From a virus: a DNA stretch of 39,235 nucleotides. The stretch covers positions 1 to 39,235 of IMG/VR virus record IMGVR_UViG_3300038701_002455; one strand, given 5' to 3'. This document shows positions 579 to 21,475 of this stretch, in pieces (position 1 is the first letter of the stretch; every line of letters begins with the position of its first letter). The notes below the pieces were generated by a model. That model made no database searches. It was not told the origin of the DNA and was given only the letters and a program-made list of their open reading frames with translations. The translations under genes were made by a program, and so were the position numbers.

Positions 579-2463
579 GATCGCGCGGCGCTGCTGGCGC
601 CTCCTGCGAAAGCCCGAGCGCCTCTCGCTGTCAAAGTGGGCCGACAGGCACTATTACCTGAGCGCCGAGTCAGCGGCCCAGCCGGGCCCATGGACTACGC
701 TCCCGTACCAGCGGGGCATCATGGACGCCATCAGCGACCCGCGTATCTGGCGGGTGACCTGGTGGAAGAGCGCGCGCGTTGGCGCGACGAAAATCCTGAA
801 CGCCACGATCGGTTACTACATGGACCACGACCCGTGCCCGATCATGGTTGTCCAGCCGACCGTCGAGGACGCCCAGGGCTACAGCCGCGAGGAGATCGCG
901 CCGATGCTCCGTGATTGCCCCCGGCTCGCTGGCCTCGTCGCCGACAAGTCGAGGGTGAGCGAGAGCACGATTCTTCACAAGTCCTTCCCCGGCGGCTCGC
1001 TGTCGATGGTCGGCGCCAACAGCGCCCGCGGATTCCGCCGCGTGTCGCGCCGCGTCGTGATGTTCGACGAGGTGGACGGCTATCCGCCCAGCGCCGGCCT
1101 TGAGGGCGACCAGATTAAGCTGGGCATCAAGCGGACCGAGTACTACCACGACCGCAAAGTGATCGCGGCCTCGACGCCGACTGACGAGGGCGTTAGCCGT
1201 ATCGCCCCGATGTTCGAGGAGGGAGATCAGCGCCGGTACCACGTTCCGTGCCCTCACTGCGACCATATGGATTTCCTGGTGTTCCGCTCTCGGGAGGACC
1301 GCCGAGGGCACGTCATGCGCTGGCCAGATGACCAACCGGAGCTCGCCTACTTCGAGTGCGCTGAGTGCGGCTGCGACATCGACGAGGTCCATAAATTCGA
1401 GATGCTCGAGCGTGGTGAGTGGGTGGCAGAGGCCGAGTTCAGCGGCCACGCCTCGTTCCACCTCTGGGCGGCCTACTCGATGGCGCCAAACGCCACATGG
1501 GGGACCATCGCGAGCGAGTTCGTTGAGGCCAGCCGCAAGGGGGCAGACGCGCTGAAGACGGTTATCAACACGACGCTCGGGGAGACGTGGAAGCCGCGCG
1601 GCGAGGCGCCCAGCTGGGAGCGCCTGTACCGGCGGCGGGAGCCGTACCCGCTGGGCGTGGTCCCGGAGCCCGTCCGGTTCCTCACGTGCGGCGTGGACGT
1701 CCAGAAGGACCGCCTGGTCTACGAGGTGGTGGGCTGGTCCCTCGACCGGCAGTCGTGGACTATCGAGCCCGGCGAGCTCTACGGCGACACCGCGGACATG
1801 GCGACATGGCGCCAACTCGACGAGCTCCTGGACCGGCCGTGGCCGACGGAGGGCGGCGAGACGCTGCAGATCCGCAAGATGGGTGTGGACTCCGGCTACA
1901 ACACGCAGCAGGTCTACTCCTGGTGCCGGACGAAGCCCATCTCGCGGGTCATCGCAACGAAAGGCGTCTCCGAGGCACGGGTGCTGGTCCGGTCGGCGAC
2001 GGTGGTCGACGTGACGAAGGGCGGGAAGAAGATCCGCCGCGGCTACCGCGTGTTCCCGATCGGTGTTGACCTCGCGAAGGCCGAGCTCTACGGGTGGCTG
2101 CGCCTGGAGCCCGGCATCGACGAGCCGACGCCGCCGGGCTACTGCCACTTCCCCGAGGCCGACGCCGAGTACTTCAAGCAACTCACCGGCGAGCACCTGG
2201 TCTCGGTGCGCAAGCGCAACGGGGCGAAGGTCCACGAGTGGCACGTCCTGCCCGGGCGACAAAACCACTGGCTCGACTGCAGGGTCATCAACCGGGTCTG
2301 CGCCGCGATCATGGGAATCGACAGGGTCAAGGCGGGCACGAAGGGCGCCCAAGCGCCCGCGAAGGCGGCCCAACGCCCGCGCGAAGCCCGCCGAGAGGGC
2401 CGCAACCGCCCCGCAAAGGGCGGCGGCGGGTGGCTGCAGCCGCGTCGGGGCTGGCTCGGTTGA
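559..2463 (+). CDS. Terminase large subunit, lambda GpA family
   Basis: Packaging ATPase and nuclease that cuts concatemers and drives DNA into the prohead. The product is 634 aa, close to lambda GpA (641 aa). The deviant Walker A typical of GpA is visible (WWKSARVGATK, K70, G75). Walker B is VVMFDEVDGYP with D170-E171. The C-terminal nuclease domain carries GVDVQKDRLVYEVVGW and MGVDSGYN, with acidic metal ligands. A GTG start at 559 gives a 20-nt overlap with the small subunit gene. The reading frame is open upstream to 220, but that part is a shadow of the small subunit gene. The TGA stop lies inside the TTGACA of a repeated promoter-like element. Confidence 0.95.
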   Translation: MATPTNRIARRCWRLLRKPERLSLSKWADRHYYLSAESAAQPGPWTTLPYQRGIMDAISDPRIWRVTWWKSARVGATKILNATIGYYMDHDPCPIMVVQPTVEDAQGYSREEIAPMLRDCPRLAGLVADKSRVSESTILHKSFPGGSLSMVGANSARGFRRVSRRVVMFDEVDGYPPSAGLEGDQIKLGIKRTEYYHDRKVIAASTPTDEGVSRIAPMFEEGDQRRYHVPCPHCDHMDFLVFRSREDRRGHVMRWPDDQPELAYFECAECGCDIDEVHKFEMLERGEWVAEAEFSGHASFHLWAAYSMAPNATWGTIASEFVEASRKGADALKTVINTTLGETWKPRGEAPSWERLYRRREPYPLGVVPEPVRFLTCGVDVQKDRLVYEVVGWSLDRQSWTIEPGELYGDTADMATWRQLDELLDRPWPTEGGETLQIRKMGVDSGYNTQQVYSWCRTKPISRVIATKGVSEARVLVRSATVVDVTKGGKKIRRGYRVFPIGVDLAKAELYGWLRLEPGIDEPTPPGYCHFPEADAEYFKQLTGEHLVSVRKRNGAKVHEWHVLPGRQNHWLDCRVINRVCAAIMGIDRVKAGTKGAQAPAKAAQRPREARREGRNRPAKGGGGWLQPRRGWLG

Positions 2464-2484
2464 CACCTGTGGGCCCCTGTGATC
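2460..2484 (+). promoter_or_regulatory. Bipartite element A (TTGACA-N13-GTGATC)
   Basis: TTGACA at 2460-2465, 13 nt, then GTGATC at 2479-2484. It overlaps the large terminase stop and lies 11 nt before the gpW-like start. It is one of five near-identical elements at + strand gene-block boundaries. It could be a promoter with a non-standard -10. Alternatively, GTGATC could pair with the GGATCAC that precedes CCTCC at the 16S rRNA 3' end. Confidence 0.6.
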
Positions 2485-2495
2485 TCCGCTAGGCG

Positions 2496-2705
2496 GTGAT
2501 TGGGTGGACCCAGGCTGACATTGACGAGCTCAAGGCGGCGATCGCCACGGGCGTGCTGTCCGTGACCTTCGCCGGACCGCCGCAGCGGACGGTGACGTAC
2601 CAGTCAACCGCCGAGATGCGGAAGCTCCTGGGCCAGATGGTCCGCGAGGTCAACGGCTCTCGCCGCTACCGGCGCGCCCGCTTCTCCCAGGGGTTCCGCT
2701 CGTGA
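2496..2705 (+). CDS. Head-tail joining protein, gpW-like
   Basis: A 69-aa protein in the place of lambda gpW, between large terminase and portal. In lambda, gpW seals the filled head and makes the tail-joining surface. The N-terminus (WTQADIDELKAAIATG) and the following strand-rich part (TVTYQSTAEMRKLL) match the usual gpW pattern of helix, beta hairpin and helix, with a basic C-terminus. The GTG start lies 11 nt after element A, and no strong ribosome binding site is visible. The stop overlaps the portal GTG start by 4 nt (GTGA), which suggests translational coupling. Confidence 0.85.
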   Translation: MIGWTQADIDELKAAIATGVLSVTFAGPPQRTVTYQSTAEMRKLLGQMVREVNGSRRYRRARFSQGFRS

Positions 2706-4339
2706 GCAAGTCAACCGCCCTGGTGCCCGTGTCGCGCGCTGCGCGTGGCCCTGCTGCGCCGTCCGGCAACCTCCTGGACCGCATGATCGGCGCCGTCGCG
2801 CCGGGCTGGGCCCTGCGACGCGAGCAGGCCCGGATTCAGCTCGAGGCGGTCCTTCACCGCCGCAGCTACAAGGCCGGCGGCAACTCGCGGCGCACGGCCG
2901 GGTGGGTGAACCGCTCGACGGACGCCAACGCGGCGGCGATGCCGCAGCTGGCGACGCTGCGAAACTTCGCCCGGGACCTGCGACGGAACAACGGCTGGGC
3001 GCGCCGCGCAATCCAGGTGGTCGGCAACAACACCGTCGGCCGCGGCATCAAGGCAAAGCCCAACATGCCCGGTATGCTGCAGCGAAACCGCGACGCGCTG
3101 GCGGCGTGGAACCGCTGGGCGACGTCGCTGAAATGCGACCATGACGGCGCCCTGCCGTTCACCGGCATCCAGCGCCAGGTGATGGAGGCGGTCGTCGAGT
3201 CCGGCGAGTGCCTGGTCCTCCGCGAGCCGGCGCCGTCGTCCTACGGCATGGAGATCCCGCTACAGCTGCGGGTGCTCGAGTCCGACTACATCGACACGAA
3301 CCGCCACGGCCTGATCCAGGGCAGCGGCAACGCGGTACGCCACGGCATCGAGTTCGACCGGCGCGGTCGGCGCGTGGCCTACTGGCTCTACGAGGAGCAC
3401 CCCGGCGGCACGGACGTGTTCACCGCCATGGGCTCGCGCATCAAGTCGCGCCGCGTCCCCGCCGAGGACGTGCTCCACATCTACCGCCCCGACCGCCCGG
3501 GCCAGTACCGCGGCGTCTCGTGGCTGTGCGCGGCCATCGCGAAGCTGAACGACTACGACGACTACGACGACGCGACCCTGGTCGCGAAGAAGATCGCGGC
3601 CTGCTACGCGGTGTTCGTCGAGGACCTGAACGGTGAGGCGGAGGCGCTCGGCGAGCTCGACGAGGACAACCTCGACCAGGTGAAGCTCGAGCCCGGGCAG
3701 ATCACCCACCTCGAGCCCGGCCAGACGGTGAAATTCGGCACGCCGCCGACCACCGCCGACCACGACTCGTTCTCGACCACGACGCTCCGGCGCATCGCAT
3801 CGTCTATCGGCATCACCTACGAGGACATGACGGGCGACTACTCCAAGGTCAACTTCAGCTCCGCCCGCATGGCCCGGCTTGCCCACTGGGCGAACGTCTG
3901 GGACTGGCGCAACAACATGCTGATCCCGCAGCTTTGCGCCCCGGTCTGGGACTGGGTGATGAGCTACCACGCCGGCCTCCGCGGCTGGCGCGTGGTGCCG
4001 ACGGTGGACTGGGCGGCGCCGCCCATCCCGATGCTCGAGCCGGACAAGGAAGGCAAGGCGTACAAGGAGCTCATCCGGTCCGGCGTGATGACGCTCGCCC
4101 AGGCCATCGCCGAGCGCGGCTATGACCCGGAGGAGCAGCTCCGCGAGATTGCGGAGACGAACGCCCTCCTCGACGAGCTCGATATCAAGCTGGACTCCGA
4201 CCCGCGCGCAGTCGCCATCACCGGCCAGGAGCAGCCCAGCGCCGGCGGCGACGACGGCGAGGAAGAGGCCCAGGAAGACAGCGCCGACGGCGAAGGCGAG
4301 CCGGACGAGGACGAGGACGCCGCGGACGGCGACGGGTAG
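2702..4339 (+). CDS. Portal protein, lambda gpB-type
   Basis: Portal protein, the dodecameric ring at the head vertex through which DNA passes. The product is 545 aa, the usual size for the lambda-type portal family. Typical features include the Arg-rich N-terminal stretch RNFARDLRRNNGWARRAI, the segment DVLHIYRPDRPGQYRGVSWL, and the later GITYEDMTGDYSKVNFSSAR, which is highly characteristic. The last 40 residues are strongly acidic (DDGEEEAQED and following). It is coupled by overlap to the gpW-like gene and followed by element B, so the next gene may have its own signal. Confidence 0.95.
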   Translation: MSKSTALVPVSRAARGPAAPSGNLLDRMIGAVAPGWALRREQARIQLEAVLHRRSYKAGGNSRRTAGWVNRSTDANAAAMPQLATLRNFARDLRRNNGWARRAIQVVGNNTVGRGIKAKPNMPGMLQRNRDALAAWNRWATSLKCDHDGALPFTGIQRQVMEAVVESGECLVLREPAPSSYGMEIPLQLRVLESDYIDTNRHGLIQGSGNAVRHGIEFDRRGRRVAYWLYEEHPGGTDVFTAMGSRIKSRRVPAEDVLHIYRPDRPGQYRGVSWLCAAIAKLNDYDDYDDATLVAKKIAACYAVFVEDLNGEAEALGELDEDNLDQVKLEPGQITHLEPGQTVKFGTPPTTADHDSFSTTTLRRIASSIGITYEDMTGDYSKVNFSSARMARLAHWANVWDWRNNMLIPQLCAPVWDWVMSYHAGLRGWRVVPTVDWAAPPIPMLEPDKEGKAYKELIRSGVMTLAQAIAERGYDPEEQLREIAETNALLDELDIKLDSDPRAVAITGQEQPSAGGDDGEEEAQEDSADGEGEPDEDEDAADGDG

Positions 4340-4354
4340 CCGCCGCGCAAGGTC

Positions 4355-4380
4355 TTGACAGGCCGGTTAGTGCCGTGATC
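4355..4380 (+). promoter_or_regulatory. Bipartite element B (TTGACA-N14-GTGATC)
   Basis: TTGACA at 4355-4360, 14 nt, then GTGATC at 4375-4380. It lies in the 54-nt gap between portal and protease-capsid genes, 13 nt before the ATG at 4394. No good Shine-Dalgarno sequence is seen for that ATG. The highly expressed capsid gene is a sensible place for a strong promoter. Confidence 0.65.
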
Positions 4381-4393
4381 GAGACCTTCGAGC

Positions 4394-6409
4394 ATGGCGA
4401 AGAACCGCAAGACCCGCGAAATTGGGCCGCTGACGAAGCGCATGGCCCTGTCTCCCGGCTCGCTGAACGAGGAGGCGCGGACCGTAGAGGTGGTCTGGAC
4501 GACGGGCGCCCGGGTTCTTCGAGGCGGATTCGACCGCTACTACGAGGAGCTCTCGCTCGACCCGGCGCACGTCCGCATGGAGCGCCTCCAGAACGGCGCT
4601 CCGGTGCTCAACACCCACAACCAGTGGGAGCTGAGCGACCAGATTGCGGTCGTCGAGGACGCCCGGCTCGAGGACGGCCAGGGCGTGGCGGTCCTCCGGT
4701 TCCCGCAGGCGGGGATCGATGAGAACGCTGACCGCATCTTCCGGCTCGTGGCGGACGGCATCATCCGCAACATCTCGGTCGGGTACCGGGTCTACAGCAT
4801 GGAGATCGTGGAGGACGGCGAGGCCGAAATCCCGGTGATGCGTGCTGTGGACTGGGAGCCCTTCGAACTGTCTTTCGTCCCGGTTGGCGCCGATGCCGAT
4901 TCCAGGACTCGCGGCGACGCCGCACAAACCAACCCCTGCGAGTTCGTCTCGCGACAGGAGCAGAACATGGCGAAGCAGAACCAGGCGGCGGACAACTCGG
5001 CGCCGAACCCGACCACGGACGAGACCCGAGCGAACCCCGCCCCGGTCCCGCCCACCCTCGACGAGTCCAAGGTCCGCGCCGAGGCCGCGGCGGCGGAGCG
5101 CAAGCGCGTCGCCGAGGTGATGGACACCGGCCGAGCGCTCGAGCTCGACGAGGACTTCGTCCGCGAGCACCTCAACGCCGGCACCCCCATCGCCGACTTC
5201 CGCAAGCTGGCCATCGACCAGCGGGCGAGCGCGCAGCGCAACCATCCCGACCCGACGCCCTCGGCGCCGGTCATCGAGCCCGGCGAGGACGCGCGCGACA
5301 AGCGCATCCGCGGCATGGCGGCGGCCCTCCACCACCGCGCCGGCAACGTTGGCCACATCAAGGAGTGGTCGAAGCGCACCGGCGAGGCGGTCGACCTCGA
5401 CGGCGGCGAATTCCGCTCGATGCGCCTGATCGACATGGCGCGCGACAGCCTCGAGCGGCAGGGCGTCCGCACCCGCGGGATGCTGCCGCAGGAGATCGCG
5501 GACGTCGCCCTCAGCCGGTCGGCGGCCACGACCAGCGACTTTCCCGTCGTCCTGCAGAACGTCATGGGCAAGCGCCTCCTGGCCGCCCACGAGATCGCCA
5601 GCGACACCTGGCGGAACTTCTGCTCGACCGGGTCGGTCCCCGACTTCCGGCAGAGCCCGCGCATCCGGGTCGGCTCGATCGCGAACCTCGAGATCGTCAA
5701 CGAGGCCGGCGAGGTGCGCAACACCGCCGTCCCGGACGGCCGGCGCGAGAACGCCTCGGTCCAGACCCGCGGCAACATCCTGTCGGTCACGCGCGAGACG
5801 CTCGTCAACGACGACATGGACGCCTTCAACCGCCTGCCGGCTGCGTTCGGCCGCGCGGCGGCGCGCTCCATCGAGGCGCTCGTCTACTCGACCCTCGGTG
5901 AGAACAGCGGCGCGGGCCCGGACATGGCGGACGGCGACCCGATGTTCCACGCCAACCACGACAACATTGGCGCCGGCGCCGCGCTTACCGCGGCGAACAT
6001 CGACGCCAACCGCGTCATCATGAAGGAGCAGCAGGACGAGTCCGGGTACGACTACCTAGCGCTCGTGCCGGCCGTGCTCCTGGTCAACACCGCGCTCGGC
6101 GGCCTGGCCCGCAAAATCAACGAGGCCGAGGACGACCCGGACACCACGGGCGACCGGTCGCCGAACCCGGTGCGCGGCACGTTCCGCACCATCGTCGACA
6201 CCCCGCGCGTCTCCGGCACGCGGCGGTACCTGTTCGCCGACCCGGCCGAGGCGTCTGTCCTCGAGGTCACGTACCTCAACGGGCAGGAGACCCCGATGCT
6301 CATGCAGTTCGAGGAGCCGCGCGTCCTCGCCCTCCAGTGGCGCCTGATCCACGACTTCGGCGTCAACCCCATCGGCTTCCGCGGAGCCGTCTACGACGCC
6401 GGCCAGTAG
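4394..6409 (+). CDS. Prohead protease / major capsid protein fusion
   Basis: One 671-aa product joins a phage prohead protease (S78-like) to a scaffold-like linker and a major capsid domain. Residues 1-185 carry the protease, with candidate catalytic His75 (NTHNQW) and Ser128 (ISVGYR). Residues about 190-350 are Pro/Ala-rich, then helical and charged, as in scaffolding domains. Residues about 360-671 match an HK97-type capsid, with phrases such as VPDFRQSPRIRVGS and FHANHDNIG. Fused protease-capsid genes are known in proteobacterial prophages. An internal ATG at 4967 with its own AGGAG could make scaffold-capsid without the protease. The protein must be cut during maturation, at a site not predictable here. 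Confidence 0.93.
   Translation: MAKNRKTREIGPLTKRMALSPGSLNEEARTVEVVWTTGARVLRGGFDRYYEELSLDPAHVRMERLQNGAPVLNTHNQWELSDQIAVVEDARLEDGQGVAVLRFPQAGIDENADRIFRLVADGIIRNISVGYRVYSMEIVEDGEAEIPVMRAVDWEPFELSFVPVGADADSRTRGDAAQTNPCEFVSRQEQNMAKQNQAADNSAPNPTTDETRANPAPVPPTLDESKVRAEAAAAERKRVAEVMDTGRALELDEDFVREHLNAGTPIADFRKLAIDQRASAQRNHPDPTPSAPVIEPGEDARDKRIRGMAAALHHRAGNVGHIKEWSKRTGEAVDLDGGEFRSMRLIDMARDSLERQGVRTRGMLPQEIADVALSRSAATTSDFPVVLQNVMGKRLLAAHEIASDTWRNFCSTGSVPDFRQSPRIRVGSIANLEIVNEAGEVRNTAVPDGRRENASVQTRGNILSVTRETLVNDDMDAFNRLPAAFGRAAARSIEALVYSTLGENSGAGPDMADGDPMFHANHDNIGAGAALTAANIDANRVIMKEQQDESGYDYLALVPAVLLVNTALGGLARKINEAEDDPDTTGDRSPNPVRGTFRTIVDTPRVSGTRRYLFADPAEASVLEVTYLNGQETPMLMQFEEPRVLALQWRLIHDFGVNPIGFRGAVYDAGQ
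4956..4969 (+). promoter_or_regulatory. Internal ribosome binding site and ATG in the protease-capsid gene
   Basis: AGGAG at 4956-4960 sits 6 nt before an in-frame ATG at 4967-4969 (Met192), exactly between the protease and scaffold regions. The frame's first ATG at 4394 has no comparable site. Starting here would give a 480-aa scaffold-capsid protein in excess over protease, as nested genes do in lambda (C/Nu3). Confidence 0.65.
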
Positions 6410-6454
6410 CCCGGGTAGCCCCACCGACAGCCAACTCAAGCGAAGGAACGAGAG

Positions 6455-6802
6455 ATGCAGAACTACAAGCAGCCGGGCGACATCATCACGCTCACCGCCC
6501 CGAGCGGCGGCGTCACGGGCGGGACCGCCTACAAGATCGGCCAGCTCCTGGTCGTGGCGATGGCCGACGCGGCCGAAGGCGAGCCCTTCGAGGGTCGCCG
6601 GACCGGCGTCGTCACCTTGCCCAAGAACACCAGCGATGCCTTCAGCGAGGGCCAGCGGGTGTTCTGGGACGACGGAGCGAGCGAGTGCGTCAACGCGGCG
6701 ACCACGGGCGACCACGAGATCGGCGTGTGCGTCGCAGCGGCCCTCGCAGCGGACACCACCCTGGAGCTTTGCCTCCACGGCATCGCGACCGCCGACGCCT
6801 AG
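6455..6802 (+). CDS. Head decoration / capsid fibre protein, DUF2190 family
   Basis: A 115-aa protein with the DUF2190 pattern: N-terminal NYKQPGDIITLTAPSGGVTGG, then a repeating beta-rich body (VGIALTD-like YKIGQLLVVAM, EGRRTGVVTLPK) ending in ELCLHG. DUF2190 proteins sit next to capsid genes and are taken to decorate or stabilise heads. The start has a usable site (AAGGAACGAGAG, just upstream). The 45-nt gap after the capsid gene holds no obvious terminator, so it is probably read from the capsid transcript. Confidence 0.8.
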   Translation: MQNYKQPGDIITLTAPSGGVTGGTAYKIGQLLVVAMADAAEGEPFEGRRTGVVTLPKNTSDAFSEGQRVFWDDGASECVNAATTGDHEIGVCVAAALAADTTLELCLHGIATADA

Positions 6803-6830
6803 CGTCTAGGGCAGAGAGAACCAACCACCG

Positions 6831-7169
6831 ATGGGATTCGCCGACCTCGTTGCGCGCGCCGATGCTGCCGTCCTGGGACACCTGGGATCGGTGCCGGTGA
6901 CCTACGCGCCCGAGGTCGGCGATCCCGTCGTCGTTTCTGGAGTGTTCGACGACAACTTCGAGCTCCAGGTCGAGCCCAACACCGCGGGCGTCGAGAACTA
7001 CGCCCTGTCGGTGTGGCTGTCGGCCGCCGAGGTGGCGAAGCTGCCGGAGGACCCGCGCAGCGGCAGTGCCAACCCCACCCTGACCATCGGCGGGCAGAAC
7101 TACACGATTCGCGAGCGGCCGTATGACTCCTTCGGCGGAGTCCGGCTGCTCCTTCACGAGAGCTTCTAG
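6831..7169 (+). CDS. Head-tail adaptor, FII-like
   Basis: A 112-aa protein resembling lambda gpFII (117 aa), which is added to filled heads and forms the tail attachment site. It is beta-rich, with VTYAPEVGDPVVVSGVFDD and a later NPTLTIGGQNYTIRERPYD, both typical of this attachment family. Its position between the decoration gene and the tail terminator fits. The ATG follows a GAGAG stretch. It is separated from the next gene by 8 nt. Confidence 0.72.
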   Translation: MGFADLVARADAAVLGHLGSVPVTYAPEVGDPVVVSGVFDDNFELQVEPNTAGVENYALSVWLSAAEVAKLPEDPRSGSANPTLTIGGQNYTIRERPYDSFGGVRLLLHESF

Positions 7170-7177
7170 GCGCGCGC

Positions 7178-8596
7178 ATGCCCCACCCCCGGCAGACGAT
7201 TCGCGCCGCGGTGGCGGCGGCGCTCAGCGGCAACACAGCCGCAGGGACGAACGTCGTCCCGTCCCGCGTCGTCCCGTCCCGCCTGGACAACCTTCCGACC
7301 ATCGCCGTCTACACGCTGGACGAGTCGGTGGACCCGGACAGCGCCCAGACGGCCCCGCGCGAGCTCACGCGCAACCCGACCATCGTCGTCGAGGCGTGGA
7401 CCGAGGCCCCGGACGCCGCGACCAACATCGAGGACGCGATGGACGACCTGGCGCTGGAGATCGAGACAGCGCTGGACGCGGACATCCTCCTGGGAGGCGC
7501 TGTCGGCGGCCTCGGCCTGATTCTCTCGGACACGGCGCTCGAGGTGCTCGAGGCCGGTCGCAGGCTCATCGGCGCCGTGCAGATGACCTACGCGGCGACG
7601 TACTACACGTTCTCGCCGGCCGTGCCTGAGGATGGCGACCTCGACTCGTTCATCACCATGCATGGCCAGTACAACCTAGCCAACGAGGTCCAGGAGGACG
7701 AGCAGGCCGAGGACCAGGTGACCGTGGTCGCCGGCGTCGAGTTCTACGGCACGGAGGCCCCGGACGAGGTGACCTCGTACGCGCGCGACTCGCCGGCTAC
7801 CGCAGTCACCGAGGTCGACCCCGTCGACGGTGCGGTGATTACGGAGTTCGACGCGGACGAGTACGCCTACGGGCTGGATGGTGCCTTCTCGCATGACAGC
7901 GAGTTCGGCGCGCTTGTGCCGCCCGCGGCGACCAATCTGCTAGGCCGCTCGCGCAACGTTGGCGAGTTCAGCTTCGTGAACCCGTGGCAGGAGGACGACG
8001 TCAACGCCTCCGGCGGATCTGGCATCGGCGAGGTAACGGGCCCCCTCGGAGACACGGTGTCTCGCATCGCATGGGGATCGACGACCGGGGATCGGTGGAT
8101 CTTTCAGACCGTCACCGGACTAACGATCGGCGAGCAGTACACGTTTTCGACCTACCTCAGAAAGCCGACCGTCGCGGAGCTGGGCCCGCTAACCAGCGTC
8201 GACCCCGCGAGCACGATCGATCTCCGCGTGGACACAGGCGTGTTCGCGGTCATTGAGCAAGCCACCGTGACCCTCACGGAGCAATGGGACCGGTACAGCG
8301 TCACATTCACGGCGACGGACACGTTCGCGTTTGTCCGACTTGTGCTCGGCTCCCGAGAGGGAGCGTGGATGCCCCAATGCCTGCAGCTCGAGGCCGGGGC
8401 GGTGGCGACCCAGTGGATCCGGACCGCGGACGCCTTTGGCTCGACTGCGACGCGTGAGGCCACCGTCATTGACTACCTCGTGGCGGGCCAGGCCGGACAA
8501 ATTTCCAACCTCGGCGCCGGCCCAGTTGTCACCTCGGGTGCAGGTGTGATCAGTGAGGTCCAAGGCGAACTGGTCGCCAAGGTGAACGCGGCATAG
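7178..8596 (+). CDS. Tail terminator-like protein with added carbohydrate-binding-like domain
   Basis: A 472-aa protein in the tail terminator slot. Residues about 1-155 look like a gpU/terminator-type protein (ending in AVQMTYAATYYTF). Residues about 155-245 form an acidic linker. Residues about 250-420 resemble the spike or carbohydrate-binding domain of many phage fibres: ATNLLGRSRNVGEF at the start, TGLTIGEQYTFSTYLRK in the middle, and QLEAGAVATQWIRTADAF at the end. Terminators are usually 130-200 aa, so the extra domain is unusual. DNA of the added part looks less GC-rich than its neighbours, suggesting acquisition. A 15-bp direct repeat lies at 7254-7283 (VPSRVVPSR). Confidence 0.7.
   Translation: MPHPRQTIRAAVAAALSGNTAAGTNVVPSRVVPSRLDNLPTIAVYTLDESVDPDSAQTAPRELTRNPTIVVEAWTEAPDAATNIEDAMDDLALEIETALDADILLGGAVGGLGLILSDTALEVLEAGRRLIGAVQMTYAATYYTFSPAVPEDGDLDSFITMHGQYNLANEVQEDEQAEDQVTVVAGVEFYGTEAPDEVTSYARDSPATAVTEVDPVDGAVITEFDADEYAYGLDGAFSHDSEFGALVPPAATNLLGRSRNVGEFSFVNPWQEDDVNASGGSGIGEVTGPLGDTVSRIAWGSTTGDRWIFQTVTGLTIGEQYTFSTYLRKPTVAELGPLTSVDPASTIDLRVDTGVFAVIEQATVTLTEQWDRYSVTFTATDTFAFVRLVLGSREGAWMPQCLQLEAGAVATQWIRTADAFGSTATREATVIDYLVAGQAGQISNLGAGPVVTSGAGVISEVQGELVAKVNAA
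8526..8551 (+). promoter_or_regulatory. Near-match to the bipartite element (TTGTCA-N14-GTGATC)
   Basis: TTGTCA at 8526-8531, 14 nt, then GTGATC at 8546-8551, inside the 3' end of the terminator-like gene and 56 nt before the DUF2635 gene. It differs from the other elements by one base in TTGACA. It may drive the sheath and tube block, or be a chance match in coding sequence. Confidence 0.35.
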
Positions 8597-8607
8597 AGGA
8601 GCCCAGC

Positions 8608-8919: not shown

Positions 8920-8922
8920 GCC

Positions 8923-15017: not shown

Positions 15018-15553
15018 TTCCCAAGGAATGGGCGCGCCAGGTGCGCGCAATGCTGCGGCCGGTCGAGACCCGGCTAGCCAACGCAATCGCCCGGGCCGTC
15101 GTGTCCCGCGTCAACGACAGCGGCGGACTGCAGACCATCCAGCTCGGCGTCATGGCCGGCGAGACGGTGGACGACGCGGAGCACTTCCAGGCCTACGGGT
15201 TCAGCAGCTCGGTCCCCCTCGGCGGCGAGGCAGTGGTCCTATTCCCCAACGGCGACCGGGCCCGGCCTCTGGTCATAGCGACCGGCCACCGCGCGAGCCG
15301 CATCACCGGCCTGGAGGAGGGGGAGACCGCGATCTACAACGCCGACTCCCTCGTGATTCTGAAGAACGACGGCACGATCGAGGCCCGGTCGCGGTCTGGC
15401 TCCGCCGCCGAGGTGGCGACGCTGGAGAGCCTGCAGGATCTGAAGGACATCTTCACCAACTGGGTACCCGTCGCCCAGGACGGCGGCGCGGCGCTCCAGA
15501 CAGCGCTGTCCAGCTGGACGCCGGCGGGGACGACGAAGTTCAAGGCCGAGTAG
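15014..15553 (+). CDS. Baseplate spike protein, Mu gp45-like
   Basis: A 179-aa protein matching Mu gp45, the trimeric membrane-piercing spike. It contains an N-terminal helix and an OB-fold part with LQTIQLGVMAGETVDDAEHF and YGFSSSVPLGGEAVVLFPNG. A repeated beta stretch (ADSLVILKNDGTIEARSRSG) of the type that builds a beta-helical needle follows. The GTG start overlaps the hub stop (GTGA). No obvious HxH metal-binding apex motif is seen at the C-terminus, unlike in some spikes. Element C follows its stop. Confidence 0.92.
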   Translation: MIPKEWARQVRAMLRPVETRLANAIARAVVSRVNDSGGLQTIQLGVMAGETVDDAEHFQAYGFSSSVPLGGEAVVLFPNGDRARPLVIATGHRASRITGLEEGETAIYNADSLVILKNDGTIEARSRSGSAAEVATLESLQDLKDIFTNWVPVAQDGGAALQTALSSWTPAGTTKFKAE

Positions 15554-15559
15554 CCGGAG

Positions 15560-15584
15560 TTGACTCGGCCCGGGGGCCGTGATC
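15560..15584 (+). promoter_or_regulatory. Bipartite element C (TTGACT-N13-GTGATC)
   Basis: TTGACT at 15560-15565, 13 nt, then GTGATC at 15579-15584. It occupies the gap between the spike gene and the gp46-like gene. Downstream GTG codons at 15593 and 15596 lie 8 and 11 nt away. Confidence 0.6.
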
Positions 15585-15592
15585 CTGGCCGA

Positions 15593-16069
15593 GTGGTGGG
15601 TGACTTCGCGCTCGAGCTCGGACCGATCGGCGGGTACTTCGCGGACATGGTGGTCCGCGATGACGACCTGGTGGCCGACGACGGGTTGCGCACCGCTGTG
15701 TTCCTGAGCCTGTTTTGCGACGCCCGAGCGCAGGAGGGCGACCCCGTTGCGGACGGAGACCGGCGCGGCTGGTGGGCGGACGAGCTCGCCGAGCAGCCCA
15801 ACGACAAGATCGGCTCTCGCCGGTGGCTGGTGACGGACCGCGGGAAGCTCCGGCCGGACTCGGCGCGGCTGCTGCGCCAGTACGACGAGGAGGCACTCCA
15901 GTGGCTGATCGACGACGGCGTGGCCGCGGCCGTGGACGTCACGGTCGTCATCGAGGACGCCAGCCCCGGGAAAATGATTCGCGAGCGCGTCGTCATCGAG
16001 CGGCCGAACGTGGACCCCGCGGAGTTCGAATTCGCGCACGTCTGGGAGGGCGAGGCCAATGCCGTTTGA
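15593..16069 (+). CDS. Baseplate protein, Mu gp46-like
   Basis: A protein of about 158 aa matching the gp46 family, which joins the baseplate hub to the wedge (T4 gp25-like role). Clear family features are DGLRTAVFLSLFCDARA, DRRGWWADEL and IGSRRWLVTDRGKL, then ALQWLIDDGVAAAVDVTV. The start is uncertain. The frame is open back to a TTG at 15560, but that overlaps element C, so GTG at 15593 (or 15596) is chosen. The end overlaps the gp47-like start by 11 nt. Confidence 0.9.
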   Translation: MVGDFALELGPIGGYFADMVVRDDDLVADDGLRTAVFLSLFCDARAQEGDPVADGDRRGWWADELAEQPNDKIGSRRWLVTDRGKLRPDSARLLRQYDEEALQWLIDDGVAAAVDVTVVIEDASPGKMIRERVVIERPNVDPAEFEFAHVWEGEANAV

Positions 16070-17141
16070 AAGGCCAACTCTCGCCGAGTTGCTCACGCGT
16101 ATCCGCGAGGACTTCCGGTCCCGGCTCGGCATCTCCGGCGCCCTGGTGCGTCGCGCGATGGCGGACGTGCTGGCGGCGGTCTGGACCGGCTCGGTCCACA
16201 TGCTCCACGGCCACCTCGACTGGCTGGCGGAGCAGCTCTTCGGCGACACCGCGGAGGAGCCGTTCTTGTCCCGGCGCGCCAGCCTGTGGGACATCACGAA
16301 GACCCCGGCCTCGTTTGCCGACGGGACTGCGACAGCCACCGGAACCAACGGCCTGATCGTCTCCTCGGGGACGGTGTTCGTCCGCGACGACGGCGCCACG
16401 TACACGGCGACGGCCGACAGCGCGGCAATCTCTGGCGGCACCACGACGGTTTCCATCCAGGCCACCGAGGCCGGCGCCGACGGCAATCTGGACCCCGCCG
16501 AGACCCTCACGTTCGAGAGCCCGGTGGCCGGCATCGACTCGACGATCACGATCGACGACGACGGCTCCGGCGGCGGGCTTACCGGCGGCGTGGACGAGGA
16601 GACCACCGAGCAGCTGCGCCAGCGGTTCCTCCTGCGTCTCCGCGAGCCGCCGACGGGCGGCAGCGACCAGGACTACGTGGCGTGGGCGCTCGAGGTGCCA
16701 GGCGTCACCCGGGCGTGGGTGTTCCGCCACGAGAACGGCCTGGGGACGGTGGTCGTCCGGTTCGTCCGCGACGGCGAGTCGCCCATCTTTCCGAGCGCGG
16801 GAGAGGTGACGGACGTCCAGACGAAGCTGGACAGCGAGCGGCCGGTGACGGCCGAGGTGACGGCCGAGGCGCCGGTCCAGCTCGACGTGGACTTCGACAT
16901 CGAGCTTTCGCCCGACACCGCGGCCATCCAGACCGCCGTGGAAGCGGCGCTCGAGGACCTGCTAACGCGTGAGGCGGAGCCCGGCGACGGGGCCGGCAGC
17001 GGAACCATCCCGCTCACGCAGATCCAGACGGCAATCGGCGTCGCGGTCGGCGACGGCGACTACACACTCAACAGTCCATCGGCGAACGTCGTCCCTGCAC
17101 TCGGGGAGCTCGCCGTGCTGGGGACGGTGACGTTCTCGTGA
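16059..17141 (+). CDS. Baseplate wedge protein, gp47 / baseplate J-like
   Basis: A 360-aa baseplate J family protein (Mu gp47, P2 gpJ, T4 gp6 group). The N-terminus PFERPTLAELLTRIREDF and DVLAAVWTGSVHMLHGHLDW are typical. A beta-rich part then leads to GGVDEETTEQLRQRFLLRLR and PPTGGSDQDYVAWALEVPGV, strongly conserved in the family. It builds the baseplate ring and signals sheath contraction. The stop overlaps the next gene's GTG start. Confidence 0.95.
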   Translation: MPFERPTLAELLTRIREDFRSRLGISGALVRRAMADVLAAVWTGSVHMLHGHLDWLAEQLFGDTAEEPFLSRRASLWDITKTPASFADGTATATGTNGLIVSSGTVFVRDDGATYTATADSAAISGGTTTVSIQATEAGADGNLDPAETLTFESPVAGIDSTITIDDDGSGGGLTGGVDEETTEQLRQRFLLRLREPPTGGSDQDYVAWALEVPGVTRAWVFRHENGLGTVVVRFVRDGESPIFPSAGEVTDVQTKLDSERPVTAEVTAEAPVQLDVDFDIELSPDTAAIQTAVEAALEDLLTREAEPGDGAGSGTIPLTQIQTAIGVAVGDGDYTLNSPSANVVPALGELAVLGTVTFS

Positions 17142-17629
17142 GCCTGATCTTTCCAGGCCCCGGGGGCGGTGGTGGCGGTGGCAACGGCCTGATCGCTCTG
17201 GCGAACCGGACGCTCTCCGGTGACGCGGTGGTGTCGGCAGTCGGCGACCCGGTCCCCTTCGACGCCGGCGACCTGATCCACGGCATTACCTGGGCGACGT
17301 CTGGCCAGTACGAGGCCATCCTGACGGGCGGGTACTTCGATCTCGAGGCGGCCGTCCGCCAGGTCAACGGTTTCAACGATCTGGCAAAGTGCCGCTGGTA
17401 CCTGCGGGTCACGTCGGGCAGCGACACGGGAGGTGCGTACGTCGGCTCGACCGGGCTATCCCAGGACGAGAACCGCAGCGTTTCGGCCTCGAGCCAGATG
17501 GTCGCCTCCGCGACCGTGGACGCCTCGTCGACCACGTACTACGCCCAGCTGCGAATGACCGCCGGGCCGGTCAATGTCACCGTCACGGCCGAGAACAGCT
17601 ACGCGAAGATCCGGGGGTGGGCCGCGTGA
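17138..17629 (+). CDS. Glycine-rich virion-associated protein, unknown
   Basis: A 163-aa protein not recognised as a named family. It starts with a polyglycine linker (FPGPGGGGGGGNG), then a beta-rich domain with many Thr/Ser/Val and a Trp/Tyr-containing end (AENSYAKIRGWAA). This pattern suits a compact jelly-roll attached through a flexible neck. It sits between gp47 and gp48 homologues, where Mu has no gene, so it is an insertion into the baseplate operon. GTGA overlaps at both ends show it is coupled to its neighbours. A role as an accessory baseplate or receptor-binding protein is inference. Confidence 0.65.
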   Translation: MSLIFPGPGGGGGGGNGLIALANRTLSGDAVVSAVGDPVPFDAGDLIHGITWATSGQYEAILTGGYFDLEAAVRQVNGFNDLAKCRWYLRVTSGSDTGGAYVGSTGLSQDENRSVSASSQMVASATVDASSTTYYAQLRMTAGPVNVTVTAENSYAKIRGWAA

Positions 17630-18444
17630 GCGAGGTGTTCACCGGCTACGTCGGCGGCGCGCCGACCGCGGGCCTGGAGCCCGAGTGGCATTGCGTTTAC
17701 GACGCGATCACCGGGGACGAGCAGCTGGTCGCAGTCGGCGAGGGGGTGTTCGAGCCGGACGGGCCCACGATCGTTGACGTGGGCGGCGGGCTTTACGCCT
17801 TCGAGCGCCCCCTAGTGTCCAGCGGGCTGGAAGAGATCGACTTCTGCGGGATCCTCGACCTCGGGGCGACTGTGGACAGCAGCCATCGCTATTTGGTCGC
17901 CCGCGCTCGTACCGTGGAGGTGTTCGGGGCCTTCGACCCTGCGCCGGTGGCTGGAATCTCGCCGACATGGTCGACCTACAAGCGCGTGAGCGACGGTGCG
18001 GACCAGTCACAGCCATCGATTACCGAGCTCGGCAAGGGGCTGTACCGGTTCGACAGGCCTGCCAGCGGCGACCAGGTCGCGGGCGTTATCGATCTCGGGG
18101 CAGCGCGCACGCCGCGCTACCTCGGCTTCGACGCCCAGAACGACCGCCCGGAGGTAACCGTGGTGAGCCCTGGCGAGGGCGGGAGCCTGGAGCCCGATGG
18201 CGTGGTCACGGTCGACGTCACCGCGGGCCGAACTCTGCAACTCGTCGAGCTGTTCTTCTCGGAGCCCGGAGGTGCGCAAGTACTCGTCGCGCGGGACGGG
18301 GCCATCCTCCGGCCGTTCGCCGGCTCGCGGACCGCCATCTCAACCGGCTACCGCTACGCCATCACGCGCGACGGCAACTGGCCGCCGGGCGCGGTGCGCT
18401 TCCAGGCCGTGGCGGTCGATGAGCGAGGGGCGCGGATCGCATGA
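17626..18444 (+). CDS. Virion-associated protein with internal duplication, unknown
   Basis: A 272-aa protein inserted between the gp47-like and gp48-like genes. Residues about 2-92 and 98-171 are tandem copies of one domain. Compare PTIVDVGGGLYAFERP with PSITELGKGLYRFDRP, and ILDLGATVDSSHRYLVAR with VIDLGAARTPRYLGFDAQ. Residues about 175-272 look like an Ig or fibronectin-type beta sandwich (PEVTVVSPGEGGSLEPDGVV). Such multi-domain beta proteins are common in tail tips and fibres. Overlaps of 4 nt on both sides place it in the baseplate operon. Function is unknown, and adhesion is the best guess. Confidence 0.65.
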   Translation: MSEVFTGYVGGAPTAGLEPEWHCVYDAITGDEQLVAVGEGVFEPDGPTIVDVGGGLYAFERPLVSSGLEEIDFCGILDLGATVDSSHRYLVARARTVEVFGAFDPAPVAGISPTWSTYKRVSDGADQSQPSITELGKGLYRFDRPASGDQVAGVIDLGAARTPRYLGFDAQNDRPEVTVVSPGEGGSLEPDGVVTVDVTAGRTLQLVELFFSEPGGAQVLVARDGAILRPFAGSRTAISTGYRYAITRDGNWPPGAVRFQAVAVDERGARIA

Positions 18445-19076
18445 CGTCGTGGTTCTACAACGTCGGCCTGGGCGCCGAGAACCCGACCGGGGTCGTCCCG
18501 CTGTCGGCGGCGGCGTACGCGCGCGTGATGAAGAAGCTCCTCCCGCCGGGCCGCATCTGGCGGCTCGAGGTGGCGGGCATCCTGTCGCGCGTCTTCCTGG
18601 GGGCCGGCGACGAGCTCGAGCGGGTTGGCGGTCGCGCGAAGGACCTCATCGACGAGTCCGACCCGAGGACGGCCACCGAGCTGCTGCCGGAGTTCGAGCG
18701 CGAGCTCGGCCTGTCGTCCGACGGCACCGACGCGGAGCGCCGCGCGCGAATCGTCTCGCACCTGGTCAAGCGCCCGCGCGTTCGGCCCGCCGACTATCAG
18801 TCGACGCTGGCGTCCGTTCTCGGCCTGGACCCGGCCGACGTCGAGGTCATCGAGATCTCCGCCGCGGAGGCGGCGTCGACCGGCGACTCGAGCGAGGTCT
18901 ACCGGTTCTTCATCTATCGAGACCCGTCGCTCCCTGGGACCTACGACGTCGCCGAGGCGCAGGCCATCGTCGACACGATCAGCCATTCACACACGCGGGG
19001 CCACGTAATCGAGTCCGTCGCCATGATCTGCGACGACCCCGAGAGCCTCTGCGACCGAGACATCATAGGAGTCTGA
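18441..19076 (+). CDS. Baseplate/tail protein, Mu gp48-like (DUF2313)
   Basis: A 211-aa DUF2313 protein (YmfQ, Mu gp48 group). Typical features are AYARVMKKLLPPGRIWR, the acidic ESDPRTATELLPEFERELGL, and DAERRARIVSHLVKR. A C-terminal beta part ends in cysteines (CDDPESLCDRD). In Mu-like phages it follows gp47 and precedes the tail fibre gene, acting at the edge of the baseplate. The ATG overlaps the preceding stop (ATGA). A one-base gap separates it from the fibre-like gene. Confidence 0.9.
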   Translation: MTSWFYNVGLGAENPTGVVPLSAAAYARVMKKLLPPGRIWRLEVAGILSRVFLGAGDELERVGGRAKDLIDESDPRTATELLPEFERELGLSSDGTDAERRARIVSHLVKRPRVRPADYQSTLASVLGLDPADVEVIEISAAEAASTGDSSEVYRFFIYRDPSLPGTYDVAEAQAIVDTISHSHTRGHVIESVAMICDDPESLCDRDIIGV

Positions 19077-19077
19077 G

Positions 19078-19623
19078 ATGCCGCTTCCCGACAGTCGAAA
19101 CACCACCTACGCGGCGGGCGTCTCGCAAGTAAAGTCCGCGGATCTGAACGATCTCCAGGACAAAATCATCGCCAAGAGCCACGGCGAAGTCGACTACTGG
19201 CTCGCGGCGGAGGACGCGCAGCTGGACGGCAACGTCACGTTCGAGCACCCAGCCGTTGGCGACGAGCCATACATTCGTATGGCTGTGGCCGGCGGCCAGG
19301 TTACTTTCGGTCTGGGCGGAATAGCGCCTGCAGGTTCCGTCATCACGGAGGTCGAGCTCTTTGGCGAGAACGACGGCGCGCAGTCTACGACAAACGCCGC
19401 GTTTGCGGCCTACACCGCCGGCGGGTTTATTCAGGCCGCCATCGCCTCCCAGGCAAACGGAGATTTCAGCGTCCTGATGGATGGTGGTGGCGGAGGGTCT
19501 CAGTTCCCCCATACCGTCGTTGCATCACGCGCCGGCCGGATTTGGCTGACCGCCTACGACTCGGCCGGGTTGAACAACCCCGTTAATATCTACGGGGTGA
19601 GAGTTCGCGTCCGCAAGCCGTAG
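19078..19623 (+). CDS. Tail fibre-like protein
   Basis: A 181-aa protein in the tail fibre position after gp48. The N-terminus (YAAGVSQVKSADLNDLQDKI) resembles short tail proteins that attach to the baseplate. The rest is beta-rich with a polyglycine turn (MDGGGGGSQFPHTV) and a C-terminal strand (NPVNIYGVRVRVRKP). It is much shorter than Mu gpS (about 500 aa), so receptor binding may be shared with the following genes. The DNA looks somewhat less GC-rich than the baseplate genes, as often seen in host-range genes. Confidence 0.6.
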   Translation: MPLPDSRNTTYAAGVSQVKSADLNDLQDKIIAKSHGEVDYWLAAEDAQLDGNVTFEHPAVGDEPYIRMAVAGGQVTFGLGGIAPAGSVITEVELFGENDGAQSTTNAAFAAYTAGGFIQAAIASQANGDFSVLMDGGGGGSQFPHTVVASRAGRIWLTAYDSAGLNNPVNIYGVRVRVRKP

Positions 19624-19632
19624 GGGCCGGCC

Positions 19633-19657
19633 TTGACACCCTTGGCGGCGCGTGATC
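19633..19657 (+). promoter_or_regulatory. Bipartite element D (TTGACA-N13-GTGATC)
   Basis: TTGACA at 19633-19638, 13 nt, then GTGATC at 19652-19657, 9 nt after the fibre-like gene. The GTG could itself start the next frame, but an ATG lies 12 nt further on at 19670, the same distance as in elements A and B. Confidence 0.6.
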
Positions 19658-19669
19658 GCTCTGCCGGGC

Positions 19670-20023
19670 ATGGGCATGACACTGTTCGACGGCACGATCC
19701 TGAACGGGAACACGCAGTACGTGCCCGTCCCGGTCTACGGGAGCGCGATCGGCCTGCAAATCGCCTGGCGGGATGGCACCTCCAACGTGTCGTCGATCGC
19801 CCTGCAGCTGACCTCCGCACCCGCTTCGGTCGCTCCGGCTGACGCCGCCGGCGAAGACTACGGCTGGGTGGACTCGGGCGAGTCGATCACGGGGCCGGCT
19901 GGCGCGGCGGCTGGTGCCGAGCTGGTGAACCTGCAGAACGTGCGGCAGACCCGCGCCCGGCTCGTCATCGTCGCGTCCGCTGACTGCGACATGCTCATCA
20001 CCGACGGCGCCCTGGGCTCGTAG
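19670..20023 (+). CDS. Virion-associated protein, unknown
   Basis: A 117-aa protein from the ATG at 19670, or 123 aa if the GTG at 19652 is used. It is rich in beta strands (DGTILNGNTQYVPVPVYGS, VSSIALQLTSAPASV) and ends in ARLVIVASADCDMLITDG. No named family is recognised. It lies among fibre and receptor-binding candidates and is preceded by element D, so it may begin a separate transcription block for accessory tail proteins. No clear Shine-Dalgarno sequence precedes either start. Confidence 0.55.
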   Translation: MGMTLFDGTILNGNTQYVPVPVYGSAIGLQIAWRDGTSNVSSIALQLTSAPASVAPADAAGEDYGWVDSGESITGPAGAAAGAELVNLQNVRQTRARLVIVASADCDMLITDGALGS

Positions 20024-20034
20024 GGGTCCCCGGC

Positions 20035-20808
20035 GTGGGCATCGACAGCGGCATCATCACCGGCGTAAAGCCGGGCCTCGTGCGGGGGCTCGCCGGCCTG
20101 GCTGGCGGCGGTGGAGGCGGCGGCGGCGGTCCCGCGGGCGACCTCTTCAACGGCTCCGACGGCGCGCCGTTCAACCCGGCGATCTGGTCTGAGTACCAGC
20201 CGTCCGTCCACACCACGCGAGAGCAGCGGGGCGGCCGTTCCCGGATCGTCGTCGACGACAACACCGGCGACAAGACGCTCTGGTACCTCACCGACGACGG
20301 CCACGCGGTTTTCGAGGCGGCGCCGGTCGCGTTCCCGTTCGAGCGCATCGCCCACAACATCGGCATCGGGAAGACCGGCGACTCCCAGACGGCGCCCATC
20401 CCCGGGACGGACACGATCGCCAGTCCGTGGATGTTCAGCGGCGTTCTCGTCCACGGCCTCACCCTCGGCTCGCTCGAGTACCGGGGCTGCTTCGTCGGCC
20501 ACCGCGGCGGGACCAATTACACCTACGAACAGAAGAACAGCCCCGGCACCGGGACGAACAACATCGTCGACGGCGGGGCGAACGTCGCTCCCCTGGGACG
20601 CCTCGACCTTCGGATCGTCGGTACCGCGTCGAATGAGGTGGAGTTCTACTTCCGCCAGCCGGGCGGGACGACCTGGACGCGCTGCACCGAGGCACAGTTT
20701 CAGCTGCCCACGTTCGCGGCGACGTGCCGCGTGGGCTTCCTGGCCTACACGTTCGCCGGCTCGTCGATGCCCTTCGTCGGCACGATGGACCGCTGGGAAG
20801 TGGTGTAG
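20035..20808 (+). CDS. Lectin-like (concanavalin/LamG-type) tail protein
   Basis: A 257-aa protein with a short helix and polyglycine hinge (LAGLAGGGGGGGGGPAG), then a domain of about 220 residues with jelly-roll lectin features. These include FNGSDGAPFNPAIWSEYQ at the start, repeated beta strands, GRLDLRIVGTASNEVEFYF, and an end on TMDRWEV. The domain resembles laminin G/concanavalin A-like folds that bind glycans. Together with its place after the fibre gene, this suggests a receptor-binding protein. The GTG start at 20035 lies 11 nt after the preceding stop. Binding target unknown. Confidence 0.65.
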   Translation: MGIDSGIITGVKPGLVRGLAGLAGGGGGGGGGPAGDLFNGSDGAPFNPAIWSEYQPSVHTTREQRGGRSRIVVDDNTGDKTLWYLTDDGHAVFEAAPVAFPFERIAHNIGIGKTGDSQTAPIPGTDTIASPWMFSGVLVHGLTLGSLEYRGCFVGHRGGTNYTYEQKNSPGTGTNNIVDGGANVAPLGRLDLRIVGTASNEVEFYFRQPGGTTWTRCTEAQFQLPTFAATCRVGFLAYTFAGSSMPFVGTMDRWEVV

Positions 20809-20810
20809 CC

Positions 20811-21233
20811 GTGGAGGTCTGGGCCCTCGCTGGCGTCGCCCTGGCGTCCCTGGCCACCGCCGCGGGGGCTGTCGCGTTCGCCTGGCGGATGGATGGCCGG
20901 CGGGACGAGTCCGAGCGCCGAGCGCGCCGAGCCGTCGCCGACCTGGCCGACGAGCGCGAGGTCCGCGCCGAGCTGGCCATGGCGAACGCTGTGCTGGTCG
21001 AGGACTTGGACGAGCTCGAGCGTCGCCACGAGGAATTCCGGGCCCGCGCAGCCCGGCAGCTGGAGGCAGCCATTGACCAGAACGAACGCCGCCGCGCGGA
21101 CCTCCGCGCCGATCCTACTCCTGGCGATAGCGAGCTCGATCGCGAGCTCCGGCTGCTGCAAGCGCAACTCGCCCGCGGTCGAGACGGTGCCGGTAGTTCG
21201 GACCGTGAGACTCCCCCCGCTGGCGTGCCTTGA
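20811..21233 (+). CDS. Rz-like inner membrane spanin
   Basis: A 140-aa i-spanin candidate that disrupts the outer membrane at the end of lysis together with an o-spanin. It has one N-terminal membrane segment at about residues 4-24 (WALAGVALASLATAAGAVAF). A long charged coiled coil follows to about residue 130 (RRHEEFRARAARQLEAAIDQ), as in Rz. It lies in the lysis cassette, and a lipoprotein gene is nested in another frame from 21073, a hallmark of Rz/Rz1 pairs. GTG start, 2 nt after the lectin-like gene stop. Confidence 0.8.
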   Translation: MEVWALAGVALASLATAAGAVAFAWRMDGRRDESERRARRAVADLADEREVRAELAMANAVLVEDLDELERRHEEFRARAARQLEAAIDQNERRRADLRADPTPGDSELDRELRLLQAQLARGRDGAGSSDRETPPAGVP

Positions 21234-21453
21234 GAAGGCGCCACCGGCGACGGGGCCGGAGCCAACCGACCTCCCAGAGCTGCCCACGCCTTCGCGCGTC
21301 GGCGAGCCCGGCGACCCCCAGCGGCGCTACGCTCTGACGCCGGCCCAGTGGCGCGACGTCCTGGTGATCATCGGTGCCCTCGACGACTGGAGCACGGACG
21401 CGTGGCTCCAGTGCTCGCTCGTCTCCCCGGGCCCCTCACCGACCGCCCCTTGA
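21073..21453 (+). CDS. Rz1-like outer membrane lipoprotein spanin, nested start
   Basis: A 126-aa o-spanin candidate read in the +1 frame relative to the i-spanin gene, starting inside it. The TTG at 21073 has an excellent GGAGG at 21062-21066, 6 nt upstream. The N-terminus is a lipoprotein signal (APILLLAIASSIASSG then Cys28, with a second Cys29). The mature part is Pro-rich (PPLACLEKAPPATGPEPTDL), as expected for Rz1. The 126-aa length is greater than lambda Rz1 (60 aa) because a C-terminal stretch (ALTPAQWRDVLVIIGALDDW) is added. The stop falls within element E. Confidence 0.78.
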   Translation: MTRTNAAARTSAPILLLAIASSIASSGCCKRNSPAVETVPVVRTVRLPPLACLEKAPPATGPEPTDLPELPTPSRVGEPGDPQRRYALTPAQWRDVLVIIGALDDWSTDAWLQCSLVSPGPSPTAP

Positions 21454-21475
21454 CACATTCGGCGGGCCCGTGATC
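21450..21475 (+). promoter_or_regulatory. Bipartite element E (TTGACA-N14-GTGATC)
   Basis: TTGACA at 21450-21455, 14 nt, then GTGATC at 21470-21475. It lies before the holin candidate at 21505, which has its own GGAGGT. This is the only copy with enough space downstream for a normal leader. Confidence 0.65.

Follow-up and report, generated by a model that had tools for sequence, protein, structure and literature searches.

Why should a perfect -35 box recur shortly before the start codons of virion genes that have no good Shine-Dalgarno (SD) sequence, with a conserved GTGATC downstream of it in place of a TATAAT-like box? This question is raised by the IMG/VR virus record IMGVR_UViG_3300038701_002455, a stretch of 39,235 bases with the gene content of a temperate myovirus, which was analysed in its whole length and is called the window in what follows. 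An initial annotation of the window, made from its letters alone, had pointed out a bipartite element, TTGACA-N13/14-GTGATC, and had left two explanations in competition, namely a promoter with an unusual -10 region or a translation signal in which GTGATC pairs with 16S rRNA, leaning towards the former. The element is real: it is conserved at homologous junctions of related phages, stands at a fixed distance from start codons that lack an SD sequence, and differs between lineages in its 3' half. Our analysis suggests that it probably represents a set of late promoters whose messages are leaderless or nearly so, and which combine a perfect -35 box with an unusual -10 region (GTGATCCT).

Results

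Four copies of the element in the window (2460, 4355, 19633 and 21450) are exact and all lie on the + strand; 300 sequences from a first-order Markov model of the window contain none. The initial annotation had counted five nearly identical copies, and the fifth of these, at 15560, carries one mismatch (TTGACT). Its sixth copy, at 8526, does have the single mismatch ascribed to it, but lies inside the open reading frame (ORF) 7178-8596 and is possibly not a member: the gene downstream of it, at 8608, has a GAGGAG of its own, none was seen at this place in relatives, and the match, which may be due to chance, was left out. On the - strand of the window there is, as had been claimed, no copy at up to one mismatch, and no terminators were found at the element junctions. 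From GTGATC to the start codon we measured 11, 13, 11 and 12 nucleotides (nt) at 2460, 4355, 15560 and 19633, respectively, all without a good SD sequence, in agreement with the earlier estimate of about 11-13 nt; the start of gp46 used here is GTG 15596, not 15593, following a comparison of orthologues. In copy 21450, GTGATC lies 29 nt from ATG 21505 and GGAGG stands upstream of this start, and a leadered transcript is predicted for it. The reported absence of a TATAAT-like hexamer 16-18 nt from TTGACA was likewise borne out (TCCTNG stands at 17 nt), and a consensus scan of positions 2300-22000 gives no sigma70 promoter.

The anatomy of the element was described from a set of 40 copies, of which 37 are distinct, taken from 19 contigs with a total of 310 kb, near-duplicates included, whose consensus is TTGAC(A)-N11-YYGTGATCCTNG. 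In this partly pattern-collected set, TTGAC is found in all 40 copies and the final A in 33, while the spacer between the halves measures 13 nt in 38 of them. When pairs of TTGACN and GTGATC were scanned for over the same contigs, a gap of 13 occurred in 34 cases and one of 14 in 2 (together 36 of 40), any other gap from 0 to 40 in at most 2, and on the opposite strand gaps of 13 or 14 were not seen at all. In other words, the two halves form a rigid unit. One long conserved stretch, on the other hand, is ruled out, the mean pairwise identity of the spacer between phages being 0.40. The start codon follows 35-39 nt past the first T in 35 of the 36 copies that could be assigned (the exception being 21450 in the window, with 55 nt), and it is GTG in 20 and ATG in 15 of these 35. 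SD sequences are weak in 14 of 15 genes behind the element, with a mean SD energy of -2.8 kcal/mol (n = 15) as compared with -5.9 kcal/mol for other virion genes (n = 38; p = 6e-4); in the related contig L119 the major capsid gene has the element and an SD sequence together. Copies at capsid genes vary, several of them reading GTAATC, GTCATC, GGCATC or ATGATC. We also considered GTGATC as an extended -10 (TGn) and rejected it: TTGACA-N17-TCCTNG with a preceding TGA would fit most copies, but the capsid versions GTAATC, GTCATC and GGCATC lack the G.

Is the element conserved in other phages? The initial annotation had staked it on conservation at the same junctions in relatives, and such conservation was found: the element precedes the gene of the gpW-like adaptor, that of the major capsid protein, and either gpJ or gp46. 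The phages that share the element have about 40-60% protein identity and the same gpW, capsid and gpJ/gp46 junctions, and the gpW junction carries it in all 15 gpW-bearing contigs of the element set. In the terminase tree there are 14 distinct element-bearing rows, 11 of them in one clade (95/99). The contig G001 (IMGVR_UViG_3300018933_000008), with identities to the window of 59% for terminase, 63% for sheath and 44% for capsid, carries TTGACAGCCGGTTAGAGTTGTGATC three times without a mismatch: once ahead of the adaptor gene, once ahead of the capsid gene and once between a gp45-like gene and gpJ, at junctions as in the window. In G007 (45.9 kb) copies stand at gpW, the capsid gene, gpJ and gp46; here gp46 sits at a different genomic place than in the window, yet still has TTGACC-N13-GTGATC, and the element therefore stays with the gene. 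A further contig, G047 (51 kb), has five copies in a single direction, and L119, L120, L201, L130 and others were found by terminase- and capsid-based scans. The window capsid protein alone retrieved no relatives as a query, but a two-row alignment did find them.

A scan of viral contigs for TTGACA-N13-GTGATCCTNG gave 39 stretches. In GC-rich contigs with genes for this virion module, the matches fall at the junctions named above and a start codon comes 33-39 nt later (L321 being a possible exception at its second site). The remaining matches are scattered over unrelated contigs, mostly of lower GC, together with the weak relative L304, without such a start. With GTTAG required in the spacer, the only matches were G001 and a single chance one, the element was not found in 80 sheath-related prophages in named bacteria, and a near-identity search of phage records with the window gave no match. 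Where a junction is tight and has an SD sequence, the element is missing, as at gpJ in the window and at the capsid gene in L300 and L303.

What, then, stands at these junctions in relatives without GTGATC? At capsid junctions of close relatives we found TAGACA-N16-TATTGT (L132), TAGACA-N18-TAAGGT (L125) and TAGAGC-N18-TACCGT (L131), promoter-like sequences each of which ends 7 nt before the capsid ATG. A promoter score of z>2 is reached at 6 of 88 capsid junctions, and all six fall within this terminase clade. Others keep TTGAC and the distance with another 3' half, namely GGTGCCACC in L121, GGTGCAACC in L122 and L134, and GGTGACACC in L128, and within L121 as well as within L122 both junctions carry one version of it. 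The 5' half is, in short, constant and the 3' half lineage-specific (GTGATC, GGTGnnACC, or a normal TAnnGT). Upstream of both gpW and the capsid gene, L126 has a different exact 13-mer, CGACTCCCGATTC, which is possibly a further version of the element. The window itself has an early promoter, at 36237, with the same -35-to-ATG geometry as the element genes, but a normal -10; the Cro-like helix-turn-helix (HTH) gene behind it (region 36237-36507, +) is apparently leaderless, and a CI-like repressor lies opposite (35755-36150, -). On the G007 contig (L279/L280) one recognises by eye a HigB/HigA-like toxin-antitoxin pair, at about 22408-23135 in reversed coordinates, with TTGACT-N17-CACAGT 35 nt before the start of its first gene, another apparently leaderless promoter.

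A candidate for the protein that reads the 3' half comes from the neighbourhood of the terminase. In G007, G047, L297 and L130, a gene for a protein of 127-172 amino acids (aa) lies just upstream of those for minor tail protein Z and terminase. This protein has a C-x2-C...H...C zinc finger and a winged HTH; its structural model (pLDDT 81) weakly resembles BldC/GlnR/Xis-type MerR-like domains (Foldseek E 0.09), and a comparison with known activators in Pfam and PHROGs gave no sequence match. Its gene is present in 4 of the 5 element phages whose contigs cover the locus, and each of the three GTGATC terminase lineages has the protein in at least one member. In L134, L128 and L121, which have GGTGnnACC sites, an unrelated cysteine-rich protein is found at that locus, as it is also in L123 and L124; its AlphaFold model (mean pLDDT 47) was too poor and was not used. 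No sigma factor was seen among the annotated proteins of these phages. The putative regulator gene appears to change together with the 3' half and is a candidate late regulator, which should be taken as a lead, not as proof.

The features of the window are collected in Table 1. Its virion module combines, according to PHROG matches, a lambda-type terminase and portal, a protease-capsid fusion, a Mu-type sheath and a gp46/gpJ baseplate. The gene behind copy 5 possibly belongs to a lysis region.

Table 1. Positions of the element copies, the genes that follow them and other features of the window
Feature	Position	Strand	Remarks
Copy 1, before gpW-like head-tail adaptor	2460..2484	+	Exact TTGACA-N13-GTGATC; GTG 2496 36 nt from first T
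Gene behind copy 1: gpW-like head-tail adaptor	2496..2705	+	phrog_2545; GTG start; no SD sequence, SD energy -2.1 kcal/mol
Copy 2, before major capsid gene	4355..4380	+	Exact TTGACA-N14-GTGATC; ATG 4394 39 nt from first T
Gene behind copy 2: protease-major capsid fusion protein	4394..6409	+	phrog_4523, E 2.4e-178; start matches G001 orthologue
Doubtful copy, in ORF 7178-8596	8526..8551	+	One mismatch, TTGTCA-N14-GTGATC; 82 nt before gene 8608
Copy 3, before gp46	15560..15584	+	One mismatch, TTGACT-N13-GTGATC; GTG 15596 at 36 nt
Gene behind copy 3: gp46-like baseplate wedge	15596..16069	+	phrog_180, E 3.9e-32
Copy 4, before 117-aa gene	19633..19657	+	Exact TTGACA-N13-GTGATC; ATG 19670 at 37 nt
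Gene behind copy 4: 117 aa, near tail-fibre region	19670..20023	+	No PHROG match
Copy 5, before membrane/signal-peptide gene	21450..21475	+	Exact TTGACA-N14-GTGATC; ATG 21505 at 55 nt
Gene behind copy 5: 182 aa, apparent signal peptide and transmembrane helices	21505..22053	+	Has SD sequence; no PHROG match
Integrase	26293-27384		
Ordinary early promoter	36237..36265	+	TTGACA-N17-CATTGT; ATG 37 nt from TTGACA; before Cro-like HTH gene, HTH_3 E 2.2e-13

Several other genes of the window may be mentioned. The tail-terminator gene at 7178-8596, in which the doubtful copy lies, has about 300 extra C-terminal residues outside its PHROG match (a fused second domain). On the - strand, the integrase is flanked by a gene with an RNA-repair-type HAD domain (HAD_SAK_2, E 2e-26) and a DUF1643 gene (E 3e-40), all within 25832-28269. 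At 28978-29605 (-) there is a low-complexity Gly/Tyr/Asp-rich protein with a long run of short repeats, which read GYGYGDGYGDG in one frame and give TATATA-type repeats in another, and 29873-30463 (-), in a phage accessory region, encodes a matrixin-like metallopeptidase (Peptidase_M10, E 7e-7) that appears to have a signal peptide. At the right end (38028-39233) a DnaB-like ORF runs past the end of the contig, and the stretch from dnaB to terS is not in it.

Discussion

How would such promoters work? On this view every copy would drive late transcription of one virion gene or of a small number of them, with TTGACA as the -35 box that the host sigma factor would contact. The block (Y)GTGATCCT, 13 nt downstream, sits at the place expected for a -10, differs from TATAAT, and would be read by a phage-coded factor or an unusual host factor. 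We infer this division of labour from the constancy of the 5' half and the lineage-specific 3' half, which suggest a host sigma factor for the former and a reader that varies between lineages for the latter. When a start codon without an SD sequence lies about 36 nt past a -35 box, the geometry is that of a leaderless transcript, an implication that the initial annotation had not noticed. The predicted transcript start coincides with the start codon or lies a few nt ahead of it; the message would then be leaderless or nearly so, and its translation would need no SD sequence. With such poor -10 sequences, the genes would remain switched off in the lysogen as long as the phage factor has not been made. 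Other branches of this phage group retain the -35 box and the distance but have a different 3' half, and the candidate regulator gene next to the terminase differs along with it. The early leaning towards transcription is supported by the rigidity of the two halves, their recurrence at the same junctions, the SD sequence at 21450, and the promoters that close relatives have at the same distance from the start.

That said, several points weigh against this explanation. The collection of the copies partly by pattern inflates the apparent conservation of the core, and the hexamer TCCTNG, at 17 nt, does not have the A that sigma70 requires at position 2. G001 has three perfect copies, yet neither the zinc-finger/HTH gene nor the cysteine-rich one was recognised in it. 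What is more, the window contig stops inside dnaB, before the regulator locus, so that the link to the regulator rests on four contigs. Finally, leaderless starts with GTG, the codon at 20 of the 35 starts, are poor in proteobacteria (PMC3616915), though fine in mycobacteria (PMC4633059).

Could it be an alternative host sigma factor, and not a phage factor, that reads the promoter? The element phages have little in common outside the virion module, and the lack of a candidate regulator in G001 also speaks for such a reader. We nevertheless consider it unlikely. In the viral scan, the element in a promoter context is confined to this type of phage, and no enrichment was found in 27 host genomes with related prophages, none of them the known host of these phages. 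In addition, a change of the 3' half goes with a change of a phage gene inside a single clade, and the -10 of the early promoter at 36237 is an ordinary one.

Next in rank, and doubtful in our opinion, comes an element that acts in translation initiation on a polycistronic mRNA, where GUGAUC(C) would pair with GGAUCAC of the 16S rRNA tail and replace the SD sequence, with UUGACA as a second contact. GTGATCC is indeed complementary to that tail beside CCUCC, the element genes have no SD sequence, and the gap between stop and start is filled by the element. However, the start codon lies 10-14 nt past GTGATC, about 8-10 nt too far for the pairing register, and none of the 40 copies has a G before GTGATC, though GGTGATC would pair better. 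The four capsid versions given above break the pairing, and the start distance is more variable (standard deviation 1.0) than the gap between the halves (0.2), while copy 21450 and the capsid gene of L119 come with SD sequences of their own. The fixed TTGACA would also be left unexplained. On these grounds, this half of the initial alternative is disfavoured.

An operator or stoperator-like site, at which a phage repressor would silence late genes in the lysogen without the site being itself a promoter, appears improbable. Short, one-oriented sites at gene boundaries of a temperate phage, here one with an integrase and CI- and Cro-like genes, would suit it, but the halves form neither an inverted nor a direct repeat, the fixed distance to the start codon is needless for a road-block, and the early region has no copies, while relatives have ordinary promoters instead. 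Chance or a compositional artefact, which would account for the 8526 copy and the matches in unrelated contigs, is already refuted for the main copies, given that four were found against none expected and that at least 14 distinct phages have the element at homologous junctions.

How does the element compare with known systems? Phage late promoters can be under phage-coded activators, as with P2 Ogr, Mu C and T4 MotA/AsiA. These resemble the proposed late promoters in having repeated sites before late blocks, with one half host-like and the other lineage-specific, and a candidate zinc-containing regulator close to the terminase of four element phages adds to the likeness. They differ in that here the -35 is perfect and the -10 odd, and that each virion gene has a promoter of its own at the start codon. 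Leaderless sigma70 promoters (the lmTSS of S. meliloti, PMC3616915; mycobacterial genes, PMC4633059) share TTGAC about 36 nt before the start and the missing SD sequence, whereas the element has GTGATCCT in place of a TAnnnT -10 and serves late virion genes of one phage group. The SAS/ESAS sequences of cluster K mycobacteriophages, whose function is unproven and for which a role in translation initiation has been proposed, are likewise short, nearly of one orientation, near start codons of particular gene families and conserved by gene (PMC3203893, PMC12699233). They consist, however, of GGGATAGGAGCCC, which TTGACA-N11-YYGTGATCCTNG does not match, and 17-bp inverted repeats, have no TTGACA and lie mostly outside the structural module, while the element is found in the virion module, is bipartite without symmetry and replaces the SD sequence. 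L5-type stoperators (named in PMC3203893) are also short, asymmetric sites of one orientation at gene boundaries, but follow a different position rule. A literature search turned up neither GTGATC promoters nor late phage promoters that are leaderless.

More tentatively, one could go further and see here a new class of late promoters, in which the host -35 is kept and the -10 is replaced by modules (GTGATCCT, GGTGnnACC and others), with interchangeable phage-coded zinc-binding readers that would displace or complement recognition by sigma region 2. The messages would be leaderless and often begin with GTG, and each key virion gene would have its own promoter-start unit, moving with the gene. 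This broader proposal is possible, but we do not think it likely as yet. If the promoter explanation is true, a group of uncultivated Mu/lambda-like myophages would run its capsid, adaptor and baseplate genes via repeated leaderless late promoters with a non-standard -10. This would be a new late-gene switch and would offer a natural series of specificity swaps between regulator and half-site, as well as a warning for gene callers that rely on SD sequences.

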